Notes under the pieces: generated by a model
What the model was told of the DNA's origin: nothing
Seen by the model: the letters and a program-made list of their open reading frames with translations, nothing else
The model's database searches: none
Made by a program: the position numbers and the translations under genes
Origin: Acidobacteriota bacterium
GTDB taxonomy: Bacteria; Acidobacteriota; Thermoanaerobaculia; UBA5066
Assembly: GCA_029781975.1 (NCBI GenBank)
Contig: JAKOVQ010000010.1
Location: 170,375 to 234,374, forward strand
DNA: 64,000 nucleotides
Reading direction: 5' to 3'
Part shown: piece by piece, positions 9,380 to 64,000 of the stretch
How positions within the stretch are numbered: position 1 is the first letter of the stretch
How the letters are laid out: every line of letters starts with the position of its first letter

Positions 9380-10171
9380 TCACTTCGCCCCGGCGGCCTT
9401 CAGGAGCTTGATGATCTCCTCGAGGTCGCCGTTCCTGGCCAGCTTCAGGGGCGTCTCCCCCGACTTCGTCCGGGCGTTCGGGTTCGCCTTGAGCGAGAGG
9501 AGGAGCTTCACCATCCCCTCGTCCCCGGTCTGGATCGCCGACATCAGGGCCGTCTGGCCGACGTTCCCCGTCTTGCTGCCGTAGTTCACGTTCGAGCCGT
9601 GCGCGACGAGGGCGCGGACCGCCGGCTCGCTCTTGGCGGAGACCGCGAACATCAGCGGCGTCAGGCCGTACATCTCGGCGTTCGGGTCGGCCTTCGCCCC
9701 GGCGAGGAGCTCGATCATCCCGACGTTCCCCGCCGCGGCGGCCTTGTGGAGCGCCGTGAACTGGCGGGCGTCCTTGACGTTCACCTTCGCCCCCTTCGCG
9801 AGGAGCTTCTTCGCCAGCTCGAGGCGGTCGCGGTTCACGGCGTAGTGGAGGGGCGTCTCGCCGTTGTCGCTGTCCTTCGCGTTCACGTCCGCCCCGGCGG
9901 CGACGAGGACGTCGAAGATCTCGTCCTGCCCCTCCCAGCACGCCTTCATCAGCGGCGTGATCTTGTGCTCCCCGTACTCGATCCAGGTGTCCGCCTTGTT
10001 CCCGGCGGCGAGGAGCTCCTTCACCTTGTCGACGTCCCCCCGCTCGATCGCCACGGCGAACTGGGCGTCGACCGTCAGCTCGTCGGCGAGAAGCCGGGAG
10101 GAAGCCGGGTCCGGGGACGGGACGAGGGCCATTCCTCCGGCGAGGAGGAGTACCGCAGCGATTCGTCGCAT
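9380..10171 (-). CDS. Exported ankyrin-repeat protein
   Basis: Signal peptide; about six ankyrin repeats (AGADVNAKDSDNGETPLHYAVNRDRLELAKKLLAKGAKVNVKDARQFTALHKAA). Confidence 0.88.
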   Translation of the reverse strand: MRRIAAVLLLAGGMALVPSPDPASSRLLADELTVDAQFAVAIERGDVDKVKELLAAGNKADTWIEYGEHKITPLMKACWEGQDEIFDVLVAAGADVNAKDSDNGETPLHYAVNRDRLELAKKLLAKGAKVNVKDARQFTALHKAAAAGNVGMIELLAGAKADPNAEMYGLTPLMFAVSAKSEPAVRALVAHGSNVNYGSKTGNVGQTALMSAIQTGDEGMVKLLLSLKANPNARTKSGETPLKLARNGDLEEIIKLLKAAGAK

Positions 10172-10232
10172 GAACGACCTCCGTGCGCTCGGCGCGCCGC
10201 CTCAGGCTAGCAGATGCCGGAAGGGAAGGCTG

Positions 10233-10868
10233 TCAGGGGAAGCGAAAGAGCTCCGGCCACCACGCCTCGGCCCGCAGGTGGCGGAGGAGCTCCCCCGCGA
10301 GGGGGAGGAGCGCCCACCGGGCCGCCCGGCGGGCCTCGAGGGCGAGGCCGTCGAGCCTCACGGGGACGACGGCCGGCGACCGGAAGAGGGAGGGGCGCGG
10401 GACGAAGCGGGGGACCCGCCGGGCGTAGTCCTGCCAGGCGGCGCCGTGGCGCGCGGCGAGGAAGCGCTCCTCCGAGGGGACGGTGGCGCCCGCGTAGAGC
10501 GCCGCCGCGACAGCCACCGCCGCGGCGAAGGTGAGGCTGGGGAGGAAGAGGGCGACCGAGAGCGCCAGGAGGAAGGACCCGAGGTAGAGCGGGTTCCGGC
10601 AGACGGAGTAGGGCCCGTCGGTCACCAGCTCCGCGACCTTCCGCCCGCCAACGTAGAGGGTCGCCCAGAAGCGGAGGGCCGCGCCGGCGCCGAACGCGGC
10701 CCAGGCGAGGGCGCGGAACCCCAGCGCGGCGAGCGAGCCGTCGGGAAACGGGGGGGGCGACAGGAGCGCGAGGGCCCCCGCCGGGACGAGGAGGGCCGCC
10801 CCGAAGGCGGTCCTCAGGTCGAAGCCGCGCCCCTCGCGCGCCGGCCGGGGACCGGCCTCGTCAGCCAC
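10233..10868 (-). CDS. Isoprenylcysteine carboxyl methyltransferase-like membrane protein
   Basis: Multi-pass hydrophobic protein with GPYSVCRNPLYLGSFLLALSVALF and C-terminal EERFLAARHGAAWQDYARRVPRFVP signature. Confidence 0.85.
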   Translation of the reverse strand: MADEAGPRPAREGRGFDLRTAFGAALLVPAGALALLSPPPFPDGSLAALGFRALAWAAFGAGAALRFWATLYVGGRKVAELVTDGPYSVCRNPLYLGSFLLALSVALFLPSLTFAAAVAVAAALYAGATVPSEERFLAARHGAAWQDYARRVPRFVPRPSLFRSPAVVPVRLDGLALEARRAARWALLPLAGELLRHLRAEAWWPELFRFP

Positions 10869-11499
10869 GGGCCACCCGGGACGTCGCGGCGTGGAGGAGC
10901 CGCTCCCCGCCCCGGACGACCCCCTCGAACGGGAGCGGCGTCCGGAGGACCGCCTCGTCGCCCGGCGTCACGAGGTGCGGGGCGAGCCGCTCCTTCAGCC
11001 GGGCTGCGAAGCGGGCGTCGTAGCGCCCGGCGAGGGAGAGGAGGGGCCGCGCGGCCGGGAGGAGGAGCCGGGGGATCACGAACGAGGCCCCGAAGTCGAC
11101 GAGGGCGGCGTCCCCCTCGCCGGTCACGAGCGCGTTCCTCATCACGTCGCCGTGGAGGACCCCGCGCTCCCTCAGCCTCTCGAGGAGGGCGAGGAGGCTC
11201 GAGAAGAAGCGTTGCTCGAGCGCCCCGCGGGCCTCGGCCGCCGGGCGCGCGTCGAGGAGCGAGAGGACGAGCCCGTCCGGAAGCCGCCGCTCGAGGAGGC
11301 GGGGGACGCCGGCGACCCCGGCCAGCCGCCGGTAGGCGACCGCCTCGCGGTGGGCCATCAGGAAGCCGGCGGTCCACCGGAAGAGGCGGCTCGAGGCCGA
11401 GAAGTCCTTCTCCACGACCCGCTCCGCCCCCCGCGTCCCGACGCGGAGGGCCGCGCGACCCGCCCCCCCGCTCCTCGCGAACCCGAGCTGCTCCCCCAC
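10861..11499 (-). CDS. Small LPS-kinase/RIO-like protein kinase-fold protein
   Basis: LRERGVLHGDVMRNALV (HxDxxxxN-like catalytic loop) and ALVDFGAS (DFG); 8-nt overlap with the downstream methyltransferase gene. Confidence 0.75.
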   Translation of the reverse strand: MGEQLGFARSGGAGRAALRVGTRGAERVVEKDFSASSRLFRWTAGFLMAHREAVAYRRLAGVAGVPRLLERRLPDGLVLSLLDARPAAEARGALEQRFFSSLLALLERLRERGVLHGDVMRNALVTGEGDAALVDFGASFVIPRLLLPAARPLLSLAGRYDARFAARLKERLAPHLVTPGDEAVLRTPLPFEGVVRGGERLLHAATSRVARG

Positions 11500-11527
11500 G
11501 CCGGGCGAGGATAGCCCGCGCCGCCCC

Positions 11528-12553
11528 TCAGCCGACCGAGAGGAGCCCCGCGCGGACGGCGCCGAGGCCGACCGTGGCCACCGCGAGCCAGAGGAGGAGG
11601 CCCATCAGGAACGGGCGGAGGCCGACGGCACGGAGGGCCTCGCGGCTGAGCCCCGCGCCGATGAGGAAGAGCGTCAGGACGAGGAGCCGCCGGGCGCCGA
11701 ACGCGAGGGCGTGGCCGGCCCCCCGGAGGGCCGGCACCCACGTCACCAGGGCGGCCACGGCGAGGAAGCCGGCGATGAACCAGGGGCGCTTCGCGGGGAG
11801 GGCGTCGGGTGCGGCCCCCTTCCGCCGCGCGGCCAGCGCCCCGAGGACGAGCGTGAGCGGGACGATCCAGAGGGCGCGCGCGAGCTTCACGGTCGTCGCC
11901 ACCTCCAGAGCGCGACGGCCATACGCCATCCCCGCCCCGACCACGGAGCTGGTGTCGTGGATGGCGAGCGCCGACCAGAGGCCGAAGGCGTCCTGGCCGA
12001 GCCCGACCGCGTGGCCGAGCGGCGGGAAGAGGACGAGCGCCGCCGCGTTCAGGAGGAAGACCGTCGCCAGCGCCACGGAGACCTGGTGCTCGCGGGCGCG
12101 GATCACCGGGGCGGCCGCGGCGATGGCGCTGCCGCCGCAGACGGCCGTCCCCACCGCGATCAGGAGACCCGCGTCGCCGTCGACCCGGAGGACCCTGACG
12201 AGGAGCGCCCCGAGCGCGAGGACCAGCGCCAGGCTGACGGCGGTGTAGCCGAGGCCGTGAAGGCCCGCCCGCGCCACCGTCCTGAGGTCCATGTCGGCGC
12301 CGAGGCCCACCACCGCGAGCGGCAGGAGGAGGTGCGTGAGGGCGCGGGTCCTCTCCTGGAAGGGATTGCCGAGGAGGAGCGCGAGCGCGGCGCCCCCCAC
12401 CAGCGCGACCCCGGCGGGGGCGACGGGGCTCAGCGCAACGGCGCCGCCGAGGAGGAGGAGAAGGGTCGGCGCGAGGCGCGAGCGGGGATGGGAGAGGGGA
12501 CGGGAGAGAGGGCGGGAGTGGGGATGGGAGTCGGGGCGGGTGGTGTCGGGCAC
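11528..12553 (-). CDS. YeiH/UPF0324-family putative sulfate exporter
   Basis: About 10 TM helices; AVGTAVCGGSAIAAAAPVIRA and WSALAIHDTSSVVGAGMAYG family motifs. Confidence 0.88.
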   Translation of the reverse strand: MPDTTRPDSHPHSRPLSRPLSHPRSRLAPTLLLLLGGAVALSPVAPAGVALVGGAALALLLGNPFQERTRALTHLLLPLAVVGLGADMDLRTVARAGLHGLGYTAVSLALVLALGALLVRVLRVDGDAGLLIAVGTAVCGGSAIAAAAPVIRAREHQVSVALATVFLLNAAALVLFPPLGHAVGLGQDAFGLWSALAIHDTSSVVGAGMAYGRRALEVATTVKLARALWIVPLTLVLGALAARRKGAAPDALPAKRPWFIAGFLAVAALVTWVPALRGAGHALAFGARRLLVLTLFLIGAGLSREALRAVGLRPFLMGLLLWLAVATVGLGAVRAGLLSVG

Positions 12554-52634: not shown

Positions 52635-55600
52635 TCAGAGCGTCCCCTTCACGTATTCGAGGTTCGTCATCGCCACCAGGTAGTCGCGCTGGGCCTTCGC
52701 GAGGTTCCCGGCCGCCTGGCGCGCGTTGAGGAGCGCGTCGTCGACGTCCAGGCGTGTCTTCACGCCGAACTCCAGCCCCTTCTCCGACATCTCGAGGAGG
52801 CGCCTGGCCTGCTCGACGTTCCCCGAGAGGGCGCGGACGATCTCCTCGGCGACGCGGACCGCGTCGACGGCCGTCCGCGCCTCCACGACGACGCCGTCGC
52901 GGGCCTGCGCGTGGTCGAGCTCGGCACGCGCCAGGTCGCTCTTCGCCTGGAGGACGCGGCCACGGGTGGCCAGGCCGTCGAAGAAAGGGAACGAGAGGTA
53001 GACGCCGGCCGCCCAGACCTTGCCGTTCGAGGCGAGCGGGCCCGCCTCGAACCACTTCCAGCCGGCGTTCGCGCGGAGGTCGAGGCGCGGCTTGTCGTCG
53101 GCGTTCCGGATCTTCACGAGCTCGCCGTAGATCGAGACGTTGCGGGAGAGCCCCTTCAGGTCGGGCCGCCTCTCGAGCGCCTCCTCGACCACCGCGGGGT
53201 AGGGCGGCGGGTCGGACAGCTCCGCCTCGAGCGTCCCGGTCACGTCGAGGTCGGTCCCCTCCTCGGCCAGGACGAGCCGGAGGCGGTCGAGCGCCTGGAC
53301 GACGAGGTTCGCCGCCCGGATCACCTCGGGCTTCTGGTTCTCCCGCGCGACCCGCGCCGCCAGGACGTCGTAGTCGGTCGCGGTCCCGAGCCCGTACCGC
53401 TTCTCGGCCTCCGTCAGCTGCCGCTCGCGCTGCGCGAGCGTCGCCTTCGCGATCTCCTCGAGCCGGCGGGCGAGGAGGACGTCGTAGAACGCCTCCGTGA
53501 CGTCGCGGACGGCGGCCTGCCGGTAGTGATCGAGCTGGTCGTCCGCCGCCGCGATGCCGTGCTTGGCCCCCCGGATCGCCGCCCCGACCTGCCCCCAGGT
53601 GAAGAGCGTCTGGCTGAGCGTCAGGTCCGCGGTCTTCGTCGTCTGCCCTGCCGGGAAGAAGTCGCCGAAGATCGCCTGGAAGCTCCCGTCCCAGCTCCGC
53701 CCGTACGAGGCGTTCGCCCCGACGTGCGGGAAGGCGGCGGCCCGCTCCTCGACGTACTTCCCCTTCACCCAGTCCTGGTACGCGCGGGCCTTCCGGACGT
53801 CGCGGTTCTTCTCCTCGGCGATCCGGACGGCGTCCGCGAGGGTGAGGACGCGCTTCGTGGGGGCGGCTGCGGCCGCCGTGGGGGCCGCTTCCTGCGCGGC
53901 TCGCGCGGGCGTTCCCTCGGGCGCCTCCGCGCCCGCCGGCGGCGCTGGGGCGAGGAGGAGGGCGGCGAGGAGGGCCGAGGCGACCCCGCCGCCGGCACGT
54001 GCGGCCGCGGAGGCGCCGTCCGGGGCCTCCGGAGCCGCGTGGGGTGCGTGCGCGTCGGTCTCGAGCGCGTTCGCCTTCAGCCACCTCCGGTGGAGCCAGG
54101 CGGCGAAGTCGTCGAGGAGGGTGTAGACGACCGGGACGACGAGGAGCGTCAGGACGGTCGACGTGACGAGCCCGCCGATGACGGCGCGGGCCATCGGCGC
54201 CCGCATCTCGGCGCCCTGCCCGATCGCGAGGGCGAGCGGGACCATCCCGAAGATCATCGCGAGCGTCGTCATCATGATGGGGCGGAGCCGCGTCCGGCCC
54301 GCGACGATGAGCGCCTCCCGCCGCTCCATCCCCTGCCGCCTGAGGACCTTCGTGTAGTCGACGAGGAGGATCGCGTTCTTCGTGACGAGGCCCATCAGGA
54401 GGATGAGTCCGATGAGCGACATGATGTTCACGGTGTCGCCCGTCAGGACGAGCATCCCCGCCATCCCGACGATGGAGAGCGGCAGCGAGAGCATGATCGC
54501 GAGCGGGTCGATGAACGACTCGAACTGCGCCGCGAGGATCAGGTAGACGAAGAGGATGGCGAGGAGGAGCGCCTCGGCCATGTAGCCGAAGCTCTCCTCC
54601 ATCCGCTCCGCCTCGCCCGGGAAGACGACGCGGTAGCCCGGCGCCATCTGGATCTTCGACGCCGCCTCGCGGATCCTCTGCGCCGCCGTCCCGAGAGGAA
54701 GGCCGTCGAGGTTCGCGGAGAGGACGACCTCGCGGGAGAGGTCGCGCCGCGAGATCTCCGAGGGGGTCGTGGCGCGGCGGGCCCTCACGAGCTCGGCCAG
54801 CGGGACGAGCGCGTTCCCGCCGCCCGCCTTGGGGACGGCGATCCTCAGGTCGCCCACCTGGGCGATGTCCTCGCGCATGTCGAGCGGGAGGCGGACGCGG
54901 ACGTCCACGGCCTCCCCCTCGTCGTCCTCGAACGTCGTCACCGCCTGGCCGCCGACGAGCGCGCCGACCGTCCGCGCGATGGCCGGCGTCGCCAGGCCCG
55001 CGTCCGCGGCGCGCTCGCGCTGGACTTCCAGCCGGTACTCCGGGAGGTCGAGCTCCAGCGTCACCTCCAGGTCGACGATCCCCGGGATCCGGTACGCCGC
55101 CTCCTTCAGCTCGGCCGCGTACTTCTTCAGGAGGGGGATCTCCTCGCCGCGGATCGAGACCATGAGCGGCTTCTCGGCGAACTCGTCCGACTGCATCTCG
55201 ACCGACGGGATGATCCCGGGGATCCCCTCGATCAGCTTCCGCGCCTCGGCCGCGAGGACGGAGGCGTGCTTCGCCCGCTCCTTCCGGTCCTTGAGCTTCA
55301 CGTAGACGCGCGCGTCCCGCACCGTCCCGGTGTCCCCCGCCCCGATCGAGGCGTAGGTGTGCTGGATCTCGGGCATCCTCTTCAGCGCCGCCAGCACCTT
55401 CTCCATCCTCCCGAGCGTCTCCTGGAAGGAGGCGTCGGGGGCGGTCTTGAACCTGATCTGGAACTCCCCCTGGTCGGCGTTGACCATGAACTCCGACTGG
55501 AGCGACCCGAAGATGCCGAGGCCGGCGACGAACGCCGCGACCGCGGCGGCCAGGACCGTCTTCCGGTGGTCGAGCGCCCAGGCGATCAGCCCCTTGTAGC

Positions 55601-57155
55601 GGTCGGCCGTCCGGTCGAACCACCCGTTGAAACGGTCGAGGACCCGCGCCACCGCGTGGCGCTTCCCGGTCCTCTCCACGTCGGGGTCGACCCAGCGCGA
55701 GGAGAGCATCGGGTCGAGCGTGAACGAGACGAAGAGCGAGACGAGGACGGCGAAGGCGACCGTCATCCCGAACTGGAAGAAGAACCGGCCGATGATCCCC
55801 TTCATGAAGGCGACGGGGACGAAGACGGCCACGATCGACGCGCTCGTCGCCAGGACGGCGAGGCCGATCTCGGCAGTCCCGTTCCGGGCCGCGGTCATGT
55901 GGTCCTCGCCGTGCTCGAGGTGCCTCACGATGTTCTCCCGGACGACGATGGCGTCGTCGATCAGGAGGCCGATCGCGAGGGAGAGGGCCATCAGGGTCAT
56001 GACGTTCAGCGTCATGCCGAGGAAGTACATGGCGATGAACGAGGAGATGACCGAGATCGGGAGCGTGAGCCCCGTGATCACCGTCGAGCGCCAGGAGTTG
56101 AGGAAGCAGAAGACGATGAGGACGGTCAGGAAGGCCCCGAGGACGAGGGTGTTCGTCACGTCGTGGACCGAATCCTTGATCATCACCGAGCCGTCCCTCA
56201 CGAGCTGGATCTCGACCGACGGCGGGAGCTCCTGGCGCAGCTTCTCGATCTCGCGATTCACCTCGTCGACGACGCCGACGGTGTTCGCCTTCGACTGCTT
56301 GTAGACGTCGATCGCGACCGCGGGGACGCCGTTGACGAGGGCGATGGAGCGCTGTTCCTCGGCTCCGTCCACCACGTCCGCCACCTCGCCGAGCGTCACC
56401 GGGACCTCGCCCCGCCGCGCGACGACCATCGACGAGAAGCCCGAGACCTCGAGCGGCTTCCCCGAGACGCGGACCGGCAGCTCCTGGCCTCCCCTGTTGA
56501 GGCGGCCGAGCGGGGTGTTGACGTTCTCGCCCGAGAGGCCGCCGATCAGCTCGTCGACCCCCATCCCGAGCGCCTCGAGACGGGCCGGGTCGACGTGGAC
56601 GTTCACCTCGCGCTTCGTGTCGCCCACCAGCTCGACCTTTCCGACCCCGGGGAGGTTCTCGAGGCGCCGCTTCACCTTCCGGTCGACGAGGGTCGTCAGC
56701 TCGCGCGGCGTCATCTGCTCCGACCTGACGGCGAGCGAGACGATGGCCATCCCGCCGATGTCGAGCTTCTGGATGACCGGCTCCTCGATCCCCTGCGGCA
56801 GCTCGTTGCGGATCGCCGCGATCTTGGCGCGGGCGTCCTGGGCCGCGTCGTTGATCTTCACCTCGAGGTTGAACTCGACGATGACCGTCGAGAGCCCCTC
56901 GCGCGACGTGGAGATCACGTGCTTGACCCCCGAGATCGGGTTGACCGCCTGCTCGAGCTTCTTCGTCACCTCGCGCTCGACCGTCTCCGGCGAGGCGCCC
57001 GGGAACTGGGTGACGATCGAGAGGACCGGGATCTCGACGTCGGGAAACATGTCGATGGCGAGCCTTCGGTACGAGAAGACCCCGAGGGTCACCAGCGCCA
57101 GCATCAGGACCGTCGCGAAGACGGGCCGCTTGATGGAGAGGTTCGACAGGAACAC
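52635..57155 (-). CDS. RND efflux permease (HAE1/AcrB-like) fused in one ORF to a TolC-like outer-membrane factor
   Basis: N-terminal MFLSNLSIKRPVFATVLMLALVTLGVFSYRRLAIDMFPDVEIPVLSIVTQFPGASPETVE ... VVPVVYTLLDDFAAWLHRRWLKAN, then linker with ASALLAALLLAPAPPAGAEA, then LTLADAVRIAEEKNRDVRKARAY ... TolC repeats to EYVKGTL. Confidence 0.9.
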   Translation of the reverse strand: MFLSNLSIKRPVFATVLMLALVTLGVFSYRRLAIDMFPDVEIPVLSIVTQFPGASPETVEREVTKKLEQAVNPISGVKHVISTSREGLSTVIVEFNLEVKINDAAQDARAKIAAIRNELPQGIEEPVIQKLDIGGMAIVSLAVRSEQMTPRELTTLVDRKVKRRLENLPGVGKVELVGDTKREVNVHVDPARLEALGMGVDELIGGLSGENVNTPLGRLNRGGQELPVRVSGKPLEVSGFSSMVVARRGEVPVTLGEVADVVDGAEEQRSIALVNGVPAVAIDVYKQSKANTVGVVDEVNREIEKLRQELPPSVEIQLVRDGSVMIKDSVHDVTNTLVLGAFLTVLIVFCFLNSWRSTVITGLTLPISVISSFIAMYFLGMTLNVMTLMALSLAIGLLIDDAIVVRENIVRHLEHGEDHMTAARNGTAEIGLAVLATSASIVAVFVPVAFMKGIIGRFFFQFGMTVAFAVLVSLFVSFTLDPMLSSRWVDPDVERTGKRHAVARVLDRFNGWFDRTADRYKGLIAWALDHRKTVLAAAVAAFVAGLGIFGSLQSEFMVNADQGEFQIRFKTAPDASFQETLGRMEKVLAALKRMPEIQHTYASIGAGDTGTVRDARVYVKLKDRKERAKHASVLAAEARKLIEGIPGIIPSVEMQSDEFAEKPLMVSIRGEEIPLLKKYAAELKEAAYRIPGIVDLEVTLELDLPEYRLEVQRERAADAGLATPAIARTVGALVGGQAVTTFEDDEGEAVDVRVRLPLDMREDIAQVGDLRIAVPKAGGGNALVPLAELVRARRATTPSEISRRDLSREVVLSANLDGLPLGTAAQRIREAASKIQMAPGYRVVFPGEAERMEESFGYMAEALLLAILFVYLILAAQFESFIDPLAIMLSLPLSIVGMAGMLVLTGDTVNIMSLIGLILLMGLVTKNAILLVDYTKVLRRQGMERREALIVAGRTRLRPIMMTTLAMIFGMVPLALAIGQGAEMRAPMARAVIGGLVTSTVLTLLVVPVVYTLLDDFAAWLHRRWLKANALETDAHAPHAAPEAPDGASAAARAGGGVASALLAALLLAPAPPAGAEAPEGTPARAAQEAAPTAAAAAPTKRVLTLADAVRIAEEKNRDVRKARAYQDWVKGKYVEERAAAFPHVGANASYGRSWDGSFQAIFGDFFPAGQTTKTADLTLSQTLFTWGQVGAAIRGAKHGIAAADDQLDHYRQAAVRDVTEAFYDVLLARRLEEIAKATLAQRERQLTEAEKRYGLGTATDYDVLAARVARENQKPEVIRAANLVVQALDRLRLVLAEEGTDLDVTGTLEAELSDPPPYPAVVEEALERRPDLKGLSRNVSIYGELVKIRNADDKPRLDLRANAGWKWFEAGPLASNGKVWAAGVYLSFPFFDGLATRGRVLQAKSDLARAELDHAQARDGVVVEARTAVDAVRVAEEIVRALSGNVEQARRLLEMSEKGLEFGVKTRLDVDDALLNARQAAGNLAKAQRDYLVAMTNLEYVKGTL

Positions 57156-57158
57156 GGC

Positions 57159-58298
57159 TCAGGCCTCCGGCGCGCCCGTCCGGACCCGGTCCCCGTCCCG
57201 CAGGCTGAACCCCCCGCGCGTCACGACCACGTCGCCCGCCGCGAGCCCTTCCACCACCTCGACCCGATCGCCCGGGGCGGCCCCGGTCCGGATCGTCCGC
57301 CGCTTCACGACGTCCCCGTCGACGACGAAGACCGCCGCGAGGTTCCGGGCGGTGTCCCACGTCTGGAGCGCGCCCCGCGGGACGGAGAGGACCCCGGCCC
57401 GGCGGCCCGTGACGATCCGCCCCTTCACGAAGAGGCCGCTCTTGAGCGCCTCGTCGGGGTTCGGGACCTCGGCCCGGATCCTGAGCGCCCGGCTCCCCTC
57501 CTCCGTCGCGGGGTTGATGTACGAGATCCGCCCCTGGAACTCCCGTCCCGGGAGGGCGTCGGTCGTGAAGGCGAGGGGCTGTCCGACCTTGACCGAGGCG
57601 AGCCGGGTCGAGGGGACCGTGGCCGTCAGCTCCAGCGTCCGGTTGTCGACGATCCGGAAGATCGGCGCCGGGTTCCCCATGTTCTCGACGTAGTCGCCGA
57701 CGTTGGCCGACCGCCTCGAGACGACGCCGTCGATCGGGGCGAGGAGGACGGCCTTGTGGAGACGGGTCTCGGCCGCCCAGAGCTGGGCCTTCGCCGCCTC
57801 CAGCGACGCCGCCGCGGCCTCGCGCACCGTCCGGGCCTCGTCGAGCCCCTGCTGCGTCGCGAGCCCCGCCTCCTTCATCTTCTCCGTCCGCGAAAGCTCG
57901 CGCGCCGCGCGCGCCGCCGCGACCTGGGCCTGGAGGAGCGCGGCGCGGGCCGCCTGGTTCTGCGCGTCGGCCTCGCGCGTGTCGAGGCGGGCGAGCGGCG
58001 TCCCCTTCGTCACGCGGACCCACTCGGTCACGAAGACCTCGGCGATCGTGCCGCTGTACTCGCTCTTGACGTCCACCTCGTTCTTGGCGGCGAGGGTCCC
58101 GACGACGTCGATCGACTCCTCGAGGTCGGCAGCCGCCACCTGCGCCGTGTCGACGGCGACGGGCGGGCGGCCGGCCCCGGCTCCCGCCTTCCCGTTCGCC
58201 GACCGGGAGCAGCCGGACAAGGGGGGCAGGCCCAGCAGGGCGAGGGCCAGGAGGGCGGAGGCGAAGCGGGCGGGACGGACCGTTCCGGGCTGGGTCAT
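57159..58298 (-). CDS. RND efflux periplasmic adaptor (membrane fusion lipoprotein)
   Basis: Lipobox PLSGCSR; VVGTLAAKNEVDVKSEYSGTIAEVFVTEWVRVTKGTPLARLDTREADAQNQ and LLAPIDGVVSRRSANVGDYV lipoyl halves. Confidence 0.93.
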   Translation of the reverse strand: MTQPGTVRPARFASALLALALLGLPPLSGCSRSANGKAGAGAGRPPVAVDTAQVAAADLEESIDVVGTLAAKNEVDVKSEYSGTIAEVFVTEWVRVTKGTPLARLDTREADAQNQAARAALLQAQVAAARAARELSRTEKMKEAGLATQQGLDEARTVREAAAASLEAAKAQLWAAETRLHKAVLLAPIDGVVSRRSANVGDYVENMGNPAPIFRIVDNRTLELTATVPSTRLASVKVGQPLAFTTDALPGREFQGRISYINPATEEGSRALRIRAEVPNPDEALKSGLFVKGRIVTGRRAGVLSVPRGALQTWDTARNLAAVFVVDGDVVKRRTIRTGAAPGDRVEVVEGLAAGDVVVTRGGFSLRDGDRVRTGAPEA

Positions 58299-58915
58299 CG
58301 TGCGGACTCCTGGTTCGGGGCGGCCGGAGCGGACACGCCCTTGAAGACGGCATCGAGCACCTGCAGGAACTCGGGCTTCCCGACGCCGAGCTCCGGGTGG
58401 GCGAGGGTGAGGTCCATCGCGAACGAGAGGACCGCCATGAGGGCCATCACCGTGGGTTGCGGGTCGCTCCCCCGGATCTCGCCGGTGGCGATCCCCTCCG
58501 CGACGATCCCCCGGACGATCTCGGTCAGCCGGATGTGGAAGGTCTCGAAGTCGAACGCGGGGGCTCCCTGAGCGGGCCCCCAGAAGACCGAGTTGAGGAA
58601 CCGGACCGTCGCCATGTGCCCCTCGAAGACCTCGTAGATCCGGAGGAAGAGCGTCTCGATCCGCTGTCGGACGGGCCCGGCGGAGAGCGACCTGGTGTCG
58701 AACGTCTCGTCCACCACCTTCAGGATCTTGTCGAGGATCGCGAGGTAGATCCCCTCCTTGCTCTTGAAGTGGTAGTAGAGCGCCGGCTTGGTCACGCCGG
58801 CCGCCTCGACGATCTCCCTCACGGAGGTCGCGGCATACCCGCGGGTCGTGAAGAGCTCCGTCGCTGCCGACATAAGTCGTTCTCGGACGGTGTTTTCCAT
58901 GGAAACGTCGGACAT
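58295..58915 (-). CDS. TetR/AcrR-family transcriptional regulator
   Basis: RERLMSAATELFTTRGYAATSVREIVEAAGVTKPALYYHFKSKEGIYLAIL; ATGA overlap with adaptor start; start assigned at MSDVS (ATG 58948 also possible). Confidence 0.92.
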   Translation of the reverse strand: MSDVSMENTVRERLMSAATELFTTRGYAATSVREIVEAAGVTKPALYYHFKSKEGIYLAILDKILKVVDETFDTRSLSAGPVRQRIETLFLRIYEVFEGHMATVRFLNSVFWGPAQGAPAFDFETFHIRLTEIVRGIVAEGIATGEIRGSDPQPTVMALMAVLSFAMDLTLAHPELGVGKPEFLQVLDAVFKGVSAPAAPNQESAR

Positions 58916-58953
58916 GGGAGGAAGTCTCACAGCCAGCTTGTTCCACACGGGAA

Positions 58954-58971
58954 CTACCGACCGGTAGGTAA
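58954..58971. promoter_or_regulatory. Candidate TetR operator upstream of the efflux operon
   Basis: CTACCGACCGGTAGGTAA, centred on palindrome ACCGGT, directly upstream of the tetR start region. Confidence 0.5.
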
Positions 58972-59163
58972 TCTAGAAGGCGATTGCCCTCTTGTCAAGG
59001 GCCGACGAGAACGCGACACCTCCTGACGGCGAGGCTCCTCCTCGGCGTCGTAGCCCGGGCGGGTACGGCGGGTGTTGGGGTCGGTGACCTCGGGCGAGAG
59101 CGGCGAAATGACGGATCACGGATCGCGGACCTTGTATCTTGATCTCGATGTGACCGAGACGAA

Positions 59164-59206
59164 GCGGCCGTAGCCGCAGCAGTAGTTTCTTTTGCTTCTT
59201 TTCTTT
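59164..59206 (+). terminator. Possible plus-strand hairpin plus pyrimidine tract
   Basis: GCGGC-CGTA-GCCGC followed by AGCAGTAGTTTCTTTTGCTTCTTTTCTTT. Confidence 0.3.
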
Positions 59207-59516
59207 GTGGAATTCACACAGCACGGTGGATTCCCCACAGGAGTCGATCCGCATGCGCATCGTGGTTCGCCGAGAAGGCGTACCCTCTGCCCTCGGACGG
59301 TTCATCGTCAGTGAGGGACTCTCGAAGATCACCCGTGTCCGGGGCCGGCAGGCCGTTCAGACCACGGTCGTGAAGACCGAGGGTCAGCAGGGGTCGCCGG
59401 CCTCGCACGTCCCAAGAGCCCGAACGGTTGCCCAGGGGGTGAGCCCGCATCAGGCAAGGATGGGCGGTGGGGGACGGGACCGGGACCTTCGCGCACGCCC
59501 TCCGAGGGAGGATGCG

Positions 59517-60473
59517 GTGCAGGAAGGCGAGATCAACGTCGGCGTGGATGTCTCCAAGGAGAAACTCGACGTCCACGTCAGGCCGCTCGGGGAACGATTC
59601 ACGGTCGACAACGACGCCAAGGGGCACGCCCGCCTCGTCAAACGGCTGCGCGGTCGCCCGATCATGCGGATCGTGCTGGAGGCCACCGGAGGCTACGAGG
59701 CGTCGGCGGTCCTGGCGCTCGGCCAGGCGGGGCTCCCTGCTTGTGTCGTCAATCCGCGCCAGGTCCACGACTTCAAGAAGAGCACCGGCCAGCTCGCCAA
59801 GACGGATGTCATCGACGCCGAGGTGCTCTCTCACTTCGGCGAGGCCATCCGCCCCGACGTTCGGCCGCTGCCCGACGAAACCGCGCTCGAGCTCTCCGCT
59901 CTCGTGGCGCGCCGGCGTCAGCTCGTCGAGATGAGGACGGCCGAGCTGAACCGGCTCGAGAAGAACCCCAAGCGGGCGATCGCCCGCGGGCTTCGTCGCC
60001 ATGTCGACTGGCTCGAGAAGGAGATCCGGCAGGTCGAGGAAGATCTGGACAAGATGATCAAGGGGAGCCCCTTGATGTCGGAGAAGTCGGGACGTCTCCA
60101 GACGACACCCGGCGTGGGTCCTGTTCTCTCTCGCTCCCTCCTCGCCGATCTCCCCGAGCTCGGCACGCTCAACCGCAAGGAGGTCGCCGCTCTCGTCGAT
60201 GTGGCCCCGTTCAACGACGACAGCGGCAAGAGGGTCAAAGACGGCAATCGTCACATCCGGGGCGGTCGCGCCAACGTTCGGTGTGTGCTCTACATGGGCG
60301 CCAGCAGCGCGGCCCGCCACAACCCCGTGATCCGAGCTCTCTACAACCGCCTCCTCGAAGGCGGCAAGAAGAAGAAGGTCGCCCTCGTCGCCTGCATGAG
60401 GAAACTCCTGACGATCCTCAACGCGATGATCCGCACCGGTTCCGACTGGGATCCCAACTTCGCCATCGCGTGA
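59517..60473 (+). CDS. IS110-family transposase (DEDD RuvC-like N-terminus, Tnp20 C-terminus)
   Basis: NVGVDVSKEKLDVHVRP, RIVLEATGGYEASAVLALGQAGLPACVVNPRQVHDFKKSTGQLAKTDVIDAEVL, LQTTPGVGPVLSRSLLADLPELGTLNRKEVAALVDVAPFNDDSGKRVKDGNRHIRGGRANVRCVLYMGA; GTG start at 59517. Confidence 0.93.
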   Translation: MQEGEINVGVDVSKEKLDVHVRPLGERFTVDNDAKGHARLVKRLRGRPIMRIVLEATGGYEASAVLALGQAGLPACVVNPRQVHDFKKSTGQLAKTDVIDAEVLSHFGEAIRPDVRPLPDETALELSALVARRRQLVEMRTAELNRLEKNPKRAIARGLRRHVDWLEKEIRQVEEDLDKMIKGSPLMSEKSGRLQTTPGVGPVLSRSLLADLPELGTLNRKEVAALVDVAPFNDDSGKRVKDGNRHIRGGRANVRCVLYMGASSAARHNPVIRALYNRLLEGGKKKKVALVACMRKLLTILNAMIRTGSDWDPNFAIA

Positions 60474-60558: not shown

Positions 60559-61059
60559 CTACTTCCCCGAAGGCCATTCCAGCTTCCGAAAAAGTTCTTG
60601 AGCGAAAACGACACTGGTGGGATTTGCATCGCACGCGATCAACCTCCCACAGGTCCACTGGCGTGGCGGCGTCTCTTTCCGAACGGTGATCAACAGCCGC
60701 TCGCCGATCCGCGGCGGATCAGACCCCCCGAACGGAGTGCCTGGCTGGTAGACCTGCAGGACGAGTCGGCTCTCAGGAACCGCGCCCCCGAACTGGGCCA
60801 GCACCGATACTTCGAGAAGGGGAAGGGGAACGCAGTCGATACCGAAGCACTTGTCGACGCCGACATCGAGGTCGAGCACCTCAGCGAGCACCACAAAGCT
60901 CTCGGGTGAACGCGTGTAGTCAGGGAGCTTGAGGGGCGGGCGGTTTACTTGCGGTGGCAATTCAACAGGAGGAGATGCCCACGCGACCCCCCCGTATGCA
61001 ACGAGCGAGAAGAGGAGCACAGTACATCGCATCACTTTGAGCACCTTGTGGCACCTCAT
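60559..61059 (-). CDS. Small exported protein overlapping the RHS stop codon; candidate immunity protein
   Basis: ATG at 61059 overlaps RHS stop (ATGA); signal peptide CTVLLFSLVAYGGVAWASPP; mature ESFVVLAEVLDLDVGVDKCFGIDCVPLPLLEVSVLAQFGG. Confidence 0.65.
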   Translation of the reverse strand: MRCHKVLKVMRCTVLLFSLVAYGGVAWASPPVELPPQVNRPPLKLPDYTRSPESFVVLAEVLDLDVGVDKCFGIDCVPLPLLEVSVLAQFGGAVPESRLVLQVYQPGTPFGGSDPPRIGERLLITVRKETPPRQWTCGRLIACDANPTSVVFAQELFRKLEWPSGK

Positions 61060-64000
61060 CTTGGTTCTGCGCCCATCGCTGGTACGGATGGGTCGATGTA
61101 GGGGCTGCGGTTTGTCGTGACAAGGGCGGACGTGATCGCGTCCGCAATTGGCATTTCAGGATCGCGCTGAAGTTCCAGTGCGAGCCTCGCCGCGAACGTG
61201 ATGAGGCGCACCGTATCTTCGTCTCCCGGAACGACAGCACCGGGAAGCGAGTAAAGGGAGGGGAACCGGGTGATTCCCTTCGTTCTGCATCCGATTAGGG
61301 ACAGTGACTTCACCCTTAGGTTGACTCCATGTCCGCCGAGGAAGAAGTAGTTCTCTTGGTTAAGCGTGTCCATGTCACCAATAAGGAAATCCTCGCTCCC
61401 ATCCGCAAGCCCGACGCTGTGCCCCACGAGAATCACGTGGTCGCCAGGGCCCACGATGCGAGGAATGTCCCCGGGCCGGAATTCGCCTGCCCGCACATAG
61501 CCGACGCCTGCCCTGCAAAGCAACAGCGCTAGCGATTGTTCGAGCTTGGCATTGTAGTGTCCTTCGGGGAATGAGTTGAATACGTACACCGCAAGACCGG
61601 AGGGATCCGAGAAGTTCAAGGGACTCACGCGGGCGTAGAAGTACCCATTCTTGCTAGGAACGAGGTCCTCGGAAACAAACCGCCCCACGCCTGGCTGATA
61701 GAACCTCGCGCGGTAAGACAGCAGCCCCGCCTCGCCGACCTCCCTCCCCGTGTACGTGAAGGGGTGGGTCCTCGTCCCGGCCTCCGCCTTCACGCTCCCC
61801 CACGCATCGAAGACCACCGAGTGCGTTACCGCTCCTGACGCGTCGTTCGTCGCGACCACGCTCCCGAGCCCGTCGACGTCCAGGTAGCTCACAGCGCCGC
61901 CCCGGTTCATCGCCAGCGGCTCGTCGATCCCCGGCCCGTTCAGGAAGTAGGAGGTGCTCGAGTTGCTCGTCTCCCCGATGAGGTTCAGCCCGTCGTAGAG
62001 GTAGGTCGTCGTCACTCCCCCCACCGTCTTGCTCGTCCGTCTCCCCTGGTAGTCGTAGGTGTAGGCGGCGCTCTCGGATCCGCTTATCGTCTGCAGCCGG
62101 TTCTCCGGGTCGTACCCGAAGGTGAAGCTCCCCCCCGGCCCCTGCCGTGAGGTGGTGTTCCCCGCCGGGTCGGTGCCGTACGCGTTCACGCCGTCGCTCT
62201 CCAGCCGCTGGCCGTTCAGGGGGTTGCCCGGAGCCTTCAGGTAGCTGTACGTCTGCACGCTCGCGTCGATCCCCTGCGTCACCCGGTTACCGATGGCGTC
62301 GTAGGCCCAAGTATGGACTTGGCCGTTGAAGGGAGCCGCCGCCGGGTACTCCGCTCGGGTGAGCTGGTAGAGCGGGTCGTAGCCGTAGCGGGTGAGGGCG
62401 TTGGCGAGGCCCAGGGAGGGGAGCGTCGTCGTCTGGCTCGTCCTCTGCCCCAGGAGGGTCGGCTTGCCCGAGAGGTCGAGGTCGTAGCCGTAGGAGAACG
62501 CCGCGAGGGTCGTCGCGCCGAGGGCGTTCGTCAGGCTCGTCAGCCTCCCCTGGTCGTCGTAGGCGTAGCTCCGCGTCTGGCCGTTCGGGAAGGTGAGGGT
62601 GTCGTACTGGCCGCGCGGGGTGTAGGTCCAGGTGAAGGGGCCGGGGACGGGGCTCCAGCTGGCGGTGTGGAGGCTCCCGTCAGGGTTGTAGGCGTAGGTC
62701 GTCGTCGGCCCGGAGGAGATCTCGAGGGTCTCCACCCGGTCGTCGGGGGTGTAGGCGTACGACACCGTCCCGCGGCTCGCCTGGACGGAGCTCGTGAGGC
62801 GGTAGCGGTCGTCGTAGCCGAAGGTGTGGGTCTCCGGCGGAGAGACGGTCGTGTCGGCCACGGTGGTGAGCTTCTGGCCCTGGTAGGTGTAGGTGATGGT
62901 GCCGCCGGTGGAGTAGCTCTTCGTCTTCAGCCGCTTCAGGGGGTCGTAGCCGTAGGTGACGGTCGTCCCCCGCCGGTCGGTCTTGGTCTTCAGGAGCCCG
63001 TCGCCCTGGTAGGTGTAGGACGCCTGGCCGCCGTCGGGGAAGGTGGTGGCGTCGAGGCGGCCGGAGGGGTCGTAGTGGTAGGAGGTGACGTTGCCGTTGG
63101 GGTCGGTGATGGAGGTGAGGAAGCGGGCGGTGTACTGGTAGACGGTGGCTCCACCCGCCGCGTCCTCCGACCTTCGCAGCCGCCCCTCGGCGTCGTAGCC
63201 GAGGCGGGTGAGGCGGCCGTTGGGGTCGGTGATCTCCGTGAAGAGGAGGCCGCTCGACGATTCGAAGTGGTCGTAGGAGTAGGTGGTGGCGAAGGTCCGG
63301 CCCTCCACCGGGGGGAGGGTGACGGTGAGGACACGGCCGGGGGCGTCGTAGGTGTACGACGTCTCCTTCCCCTCCGGGTCAGTCACCCTGGTGACGCGGC
63401 CCAGGGGGTCGTGGTCGTAGCGGGTGACAGGGCGCGCGCCCGAGCCGGCCGGCCCGGTCACCGTCTCGAGGTTGCCGGCAGGGTCGTAGCCGTAGTCGGT
63501 CACGGCGCCGCCCGCGGTCGTCTGGCGGGTGACACGCCCCGCGGAGTCGTACTCGTACTGGCTGACGGCGTCCGTGGCCGTGCCGTCGGTCGCCACGCGG
63601 TAGACCGTCCGGAGGCTCCCCGGCCTCGTGGAGCCGGCCGGGTAGTAGTCGTAGGACCAGGCTTGCCAGTCGGGGTTCCGGACGTTCGTGGCGGGGTCCT
63701 TCGGGGTCACGCTGACGACTCTGTCCGGGAAGTCGGGGTCGTAGGCGTAGTCGTAGCGGACCGGGACGCTCCCCTGGGCGTCACGAGTTGCCGAGAGGAC
63801 CCTCCCCTTCCCGTCGTAGGTGTACTGCGAGGTCACGCCGGTCTGGTCGACCGTCTGGATCGGGTGGCCGTTCTCGTCGTAGGCGGTCGAGCCCGACGTG
63901 CCGCCGGGGTCGCTCCGGTCGGTGATCAGCCCGGACCCGGCGTCGAAGGTGTAGATGCTCTGGTGGCCGCCGGAGTCGCTCTTGGCGCTGTGGGTCGCGT
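61056..64000 (-). CDS. RHS-repeat protein with RHS core and variable C-terminal tip, 5' end beyond window
   Basis: Many YD repeats (YTYDGKGRVLSATRD, YGYDPAGNLETVTGP...); core end GREVGEAGLLSYRARFYQPGVGRFVSEDLVPSKNGYFYARVSPLNFSDPSGL; frame open to 64000. Confidence 0.95.
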   Translation of the reverse strand, partial: ATHSAKSDSGGHQSIYTFDAGSGLITDRSDPGGTSGSTAYDENGHPIQTVDQTGVTSQYTYDGKGRVLSATRDAQGSVPVRYDYAYDPDFPDRVVSVTPKDPATNVRNPDWQAWSYDYYPAGSTRPGSLRTVYRVATDGTATDAVSQYEYDSAGRVTRQTTAGGAVTDYGYDPAGNLETVTGPAGSGARPVTRYDHDPLGRVTRVTDPEGKETSYTYDAPGRVLTVTLPPVEGRTFATTYSYDHFESSSGLLFTEITDPNGRLTRLGYDAEGRLRRSEDAAGGATVYQYTARFLTSITDPNGNVTSYHYDPSGRLDATTFPDGGQASYTYQGDGLLKTKTDRRGTTVTYGYDPLKRLKTKSYSTGGTITYTYQGQKLTTVADTTVSPPETHTFGYDDRYRLTSSVQASRGTVSYAYTPDDRVETLEISSGPTTTYAYNPDGSLHTASWSPVPGPFTWTYTPRGQYDTLTFPNGQTRSYAYDDQGRLTSLTNALGATTLAAFSYGYDLDLSGKPTLLGQRTSQTTTLPSLGLANALTRYGYDPLYQLTRAEYPAAAPFNGQVHTWAYDAIGNRVTQGIDASVQTYSYLKAPGNPLNGQRLESDGVNAYGTDPAGNTTSRQGPGGSFTFGYDPENRLQTISGSESAAYTYDYQGRRTSKTVGGVTTTYLYDGLNLIGETSNSSTSYFLNGPGIDEPLAMNRGGAVSYLDVDGLGSVVATNDASGAVTHSVVFDAWGSVKAEAGTRTHPFTYTGREVGEAGLLSYRARFYQPGVGRFVSEDLVPSKNGYFYARVSPLNFSDPSGLAVYVFNSFPEGHYNAKLEQSLALLLCRAGVGYVRAGEFRPGDIPRIVGPGDHVILVGHSVGLADGSEDFLIGDMDTLNQENYFFLGGHGVNLRVKSLSLIGCRTKGITRFPSLYSLPGAVVPGDEDTVRLITFAARLALELQRDPEMPIADAITSALVTTNRSPYIDPSVPAMGAEPR

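Follow-up and report, generated by a model that had tools for sequence, protein, structure and literature searches.

The window (the whole stretch of 64,000 nucleotides that was analysed) carries on its reverse strand a tight operon, in which the genes for a TetR-family regulator, a periplasmic adaptor and an RND permease fused to an outer-membrane factor (OMF) follow one another in this order. The fusion gene (52635..57155, −) is read from 57155 to 52635 as one frame of 1506 codons, with a GTG start, a GGAGG ahead of it and, according to the open reading frame listing and its translation, no internal stop. The adaptor gene (57159..58298, −; RND_mfp), whose product has a lipobox-like LSGC near the N-terminus, stops 3 bases ahead of the GTG of the fusion, and its own ATG overlaps the stop codon of tetR (ATGA). 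The tetR gene (58295..58948, −; TetR_N, 5e-20) has an uncertain start, and near its 5' end lies a sigma-70-like promoter match, TTGACA-17-TAGATT (58970..58998, −), which is a consensus match only, with 10 of 12 matches. Both the adaptor and the TetR gene had been claimed upstream of the fusion in the initial annotation, and both were found. In all relatives checked the adaptor gene comes before that of the permease, and most of the loci with a long enough flank have tetR ahead as well. Just upstream of tetR, and divergent from the pump operon, is an IS110-family transposase gene (59205-60473, +; DEDD_Tnp_IS110, Transposase_20), which is adjoined by a stretch of lower GC. The same end of the window encodes a 926-aa RHS/YD-repeat-like protein (61056-63836, −), which has an RHS-core-like end and a tail distinct from it. 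Behind it comes a small ORF (60559-61059, −) whose start resembles a signal peptide, and these two might represent a polymorphic effector with its partner. At 10001-12000 there is a strong AT skew (0.338) at 77% GC, unlike the remaining window.

The permease domain (residues 4-1014; 54114..57146, −) is complete and of the HAE1/MdtB-like type, since the Pfam profile ACR_tran is matched over nearly its whole length (positions 2-1020 of 1021, 902 bits, E 5.6e-271). Among the solved structures the top phmmer match was MdtB (9lyq, 5.4e-148). The proton-relay residues, Asp-Asp in TM4 and Lys in TM10, are present within LAIGLLIDDAIVV and GLVTKNAILLVDY, as located by eye from the sequence and not by structural alignment. 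Because its scores stay under the curated NCBIfam cut-offs (863.7 bits against 1250 for RND_permease_2, with the MdtB and MdtC models also below), the permease is a member of the RND family and not a named equivalog. The predicted mature OMF (residues 1077-1506; 52638..53927, −) contains two OEP repeats found as Pfam profile matches, repeat 1 at 53274..53840 (−) and repeat 2 at 52644..53192 (−; residues 1322-1504), which together span the C-terminal ~400 residues. When residues 969–1506 were modelled with AF2, the OMF showed a complete TolC topology with pLDDT mostly above 90, and Foldseek matched this model to TolC (E 6e-25, TMt ~0.7-0.8), the top solved matches being the TolC proteins of E. 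coli and Klebsiella. The OMF part is a complete TolC-type outer-membrane factor. The single-frame fusion of two complete proteins that had been described at the outset was borne out in this way, and it joins two ordinary members of known families in one gene. A second OEP pair is present in the same genome (G000:C24:540391-541578), inside an open frame of 1179 aa.

The junction (53847..54068, −) runs from the end of HRRWLKANAL in the cytoplasmic permease tail through a signal-peptide-like segment and an Ala/Pro spacer. From the last permease TM segment to the OMF homology the linker measures ~85-86 codons, and in agreement with what had been claimed for it, no in-frame ATG, GTG or TTG was found. 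Its GC content is ~82% in the window, and 57% of shuffles of the window linker are stop-free; furthermore, a GC-rich antisense shadow ORF of 1886 aa (52911-58571, +) overlaps the pump operon. The open frame alone is therefore weak evidence in this genome. A stop-free linker is not improbable at this GC, as would suit an artefact in which two genes are joined by an error of sequencing or assembly, or by a frame that is open by chance in a GC-rich genome. Since open frames tell little at such GC, a comparison with relatives was required.

Orthologs were collected from a contig scan and from searches of related genomes, most of them metagenome-assembled genomes (MAGs), and in each of them the permease and the OMF were located by separate mapping, with a check of the frame between them. 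Fourteen distinct Acidobacteriota orthologs are fused in frame, namely the window, L031, L032, L033, L034, L036, L052, L066, L067, L068, L069, L070, L073 and L075, where L068 is counted as fused with its OMF cut by the contig end. Three more fusions were found, two in Thermodesulfobacteriota (L051 in G196 and L148 in G255) and one in a distant member of the Acidobacteriota with 41% permease identity (L117 in G159). The search for RND-TolC fusions in relatives, which the initial annotation had proposed, thus turned up 16 further genomes with this in-frame join. Within the window's own family, every ortholog with an assembled junction is fused (7/7; window, L031, L032, L033, L036, L052, L068). 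The fused linkers that were measured (n=15) show 14 distinct lengths, from 38 up to 86 codons, and each of them keeps the frame without a stop. The domains evolve more slowly than the linker, in which second codon positions change least in 6/6 pairs compared, as in coding DNA. In L051, where the linker GC is 0.47, the fused OMF frame has 1469 aa against mostly 437-522 aa in other OMF frames, and in L148, with a locus GC of 0.61, it has 1490 aa against mostly 459-543 aa; frames of such outlying length indicate that these two fusions are not explained by the open frames of GC-rich DNA. The same in-frame join is seen in independent MAGs with permease identities of 62-87% and in lower-GC genomes (locus GC 0.54 and 0.61), and the window offers no start codon for a separate OMF. 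The conservation of the in-frame join is a strong argument against a sequencing artefact, and on this ground a chance open frame or assembly error was rejected as an extremely improbable origin of the fusion. Two outcomes had been named at the start as speaking against a real fusion, a frameshift in the linker and a split arrangement in all relatives. The same in-frame join in other genomes argues against the former, and the 14 fused Acidobacteriota orthologs, window included, are at odds with the latter.

The signal-peptide-like stretch that had been claimed in the linker is present as AARAGGGVASALLAALLLAPAPPAGA (residues ~1051-1076; 53928..54005, −), with a predicted signal peptidase I (SPase I) cut at A1076|E1077 (window 53928/53927), after PPAGA. 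On a rule-based SPase I score, which is a crude home-made rule set and not SignalP, this segment scores 12.1, a value reached by 1 of 300 shuffles. By the same crude score, an h-region with an SPase-I-like site occurs in 17/17 fused linkers (scores 9.9-14.2), and the signal peptides of the separate orthologous OMFs score 8.9-14.1; for L031 and L075, 22 and 21 of 300 composition shuffles match their score (~7%). Behind TM12 the chain first has a basic tail, which reads HRRWLKAN in the window and fits the cytoplasmic C-terminus of RND permeases; the hydrophobic core follows, and after it the AxA-like site. The basic charge directly ahead of the window's hydrophobic core is weak. AF2 places a short helix at residues 1054-1068 of the linker, with flanks of low pLDDT. 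The segment identified by this score ahead of the OMF sits internally and not at the N-terminus of the precursor. In addition, the genome holds two Peptidase_S26 genes, which are candidates for LepB.

In more than 20 other relatives the permease gene ends in a stop codon and the OMF has a start of its own. These split orthologous operons (L037-L049, L053, L055, L056, L091-L099) likewise encode an adaptor, a permease and an OMF, in unchanged order, at ~65-74% permease identity and with an OMF that begins with a signal peptide, but they differ from the fused ones in the stop codon and the separate OMF start, which mostly overlap by 4 bases (ATGA/TTGA-type) with the OMF in another frame. Such overlapping starts would suit a model in which translation mainly begins anew inside the linker to give a separate OMF, the read-through frame being incidental or minor. 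So would the in-frame ATG that L031, L066, L067, L069, L070 and L073 carry ahead of the signal core, and a separately started OMF is possible in relatives with such an internal ATG. However, the linkers of the window and L052 are free of ATG, GTG and TTG, and in L033, L036 and L068 these codons are missing from the part upstream of the core. The sole near-cognate codon in the window's linker is a single CTG that has a GGAGG only 3 bases in front of it, and the frame has been kept through many indels. Overall, we regard internal initiation as the main source of the OMF as unlikely.

Placing the fused and split states on the permease tree takes four to five changes at the least, and when the 12 core fused Acidobacteriota rows were held together on this tree, a single fused clade was rejected by the AU test (p ≈ 8e-5). 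A single origin of the fusions was discarded on the basis of these 12 rows, in a test that does not separate gain, loss and transfer. The AU rejection and the multiple changes of state point to fusion and separation having interconverted or having been moved by transfer. The fusion is likely to have originated where stop and start overlap by 4 bases: an indel of one base there would be enough to shift the frame and join the two genes, and the signal peptide of the OMF would have been kept inside the chain.

These features make it probable that the fusion is a polyprotein, the precursor of two pump subunits, which would be cleaved by signal peptidase I at the internal signal peptide. From the sequence we infer the topology, the cleavage, the 1:1 supply and the pump function as follows. 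The RND part would be inserted co-translationally with its 12 TM helices and would leave its C-terminus, the HRRWLKAN tail, in the cytoplasm. The hydrophobic linker segment would then act as an internal N-in/C-out signal peptide that starts the export of the OMF chain, and LepB would cut at the predicted site, so that the permease would retain a short thirteenth hydrophobic segment. The freed OMF would reach the outer membrane and trimerise there, and together with the permease and the lipoprotein-type adaptor encoded just upstream it would form a tripartite pump under the control of TetR. RND permeases and OMFs both act as trimers, so one precursor would give the ratio needed by the pump, and a 1:1 supply would fit the 3:3 ratio of such assemblies.

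The initial annotation had offered a membrane-spanning linker as the alternative to a cut polyprotein. The chain would then stay uncut, with the linker as TM13 and each OMF protomer tethered to a permease protomer in a covalent two-membrane pump. The linker core is hydrophobic enough for the membrane in all fused relatives and is given a helix by AF2, as such a tether would demand, but the spacer between the predicted cut and the OMF has 3-8 aa in L067, L036, L052, L034 and L051 and would span at most ~10-30 Å. Helix H1 of the OMF is part of the equatorial belt halfway along the ~100 Å α-barrel, ~50 Å above the barrel tip (PMC8277102). The tip itself is above the periplasmic domain of the permease; the spacer being short against the height of H1, the tether would not be expected to bridge the distance when the pump is assembled normally. 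Furthermore, an SPase-I-like site of the kind seen after the core in all fused linkers would normally be cut when LepB is present. Because this site occurs in every fused relative and some spacers have 3-8 residues, the cleaved polyprotein is the favoured one of the two alternatives, whereas we hold the uncut tether to be very unlikely. With somewhat less assurance, we favour the broader view that this polyprotein has evolved recurrently, and that, by means of an internal SPase-cleaved signal peptide, the RND motor may hard-wire both the 1:1 supply and the co-translational export of its own channel, which might be dedicated to this pump.

Two proteins for different membranes are encoded here as one chain, in an arrangement that is conserved in a clade and recurs in other lineages. 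Three questions can be put to this natural test case: does a signal peptide still function behind 12 TM helices, can the export of an outer-membrane protein be strictly co-translational, and is there selection for a fixed ratio of motor to channel? In addition, gene callers and domain tables may misjudge pump parts in these phyla, for example as a "missing OMF" or a "giant permease".

Among the known systems, MexAB-OprM, MdtABC-TolC and AcrAB-TolC are built from the same three families (HAE1-type permease, periplasmic adaptor and TolC-type OMF). Their components are encoded by separate genes, whereas in the present locus a single frame covers the permease, an internal signal-peptide-like segment and the OMF, and the operon in the window also includes a TetR regulator. 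Both protein families are well known, and it is the polyprotein organisation that is unusual. A report of an RND-OMF fusion was not found in the literature searched, a coverage outside which most subscription journals lie. A paper on the Q-rule of Bacteroidetes, which came up in this literature, is unrelated. In the Hymenobacter and Parabacteroides plasmid operons inspected, the permease and the OMF are split, with no fusion, and the adjacent permease-OMF pairs with both parts annotated among the matches listed from the plasmid collection are two genes. The CusA/CzcA–TolC fusions of Bacteroidota, of ~1450 aa, have an RND permease N-terminal to the OMF. They belong to the heavy-metal (HME) RND family and to another phylum, whereas the permease described here is HAE1-type. 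The closest known organisation is that of the rhizobial FbcH cytochrome b/c1 precursor, in which one chain, cut by signal peptidase, comprises a multi-TM inner-membrane protein, an internal signal sequence and, behind it, the partner that is exported. The cleavage of FbcH was shown experimentally, and its exported part remains at the inner membrane. The proteins of the two systems are unrelated and the cleavage of the fusion is predicted from sequence, but a signal-peptide-like segment with a cleavage motif lies between two proteins, as in FbcH, in each of the 17 linkers by our crude score.
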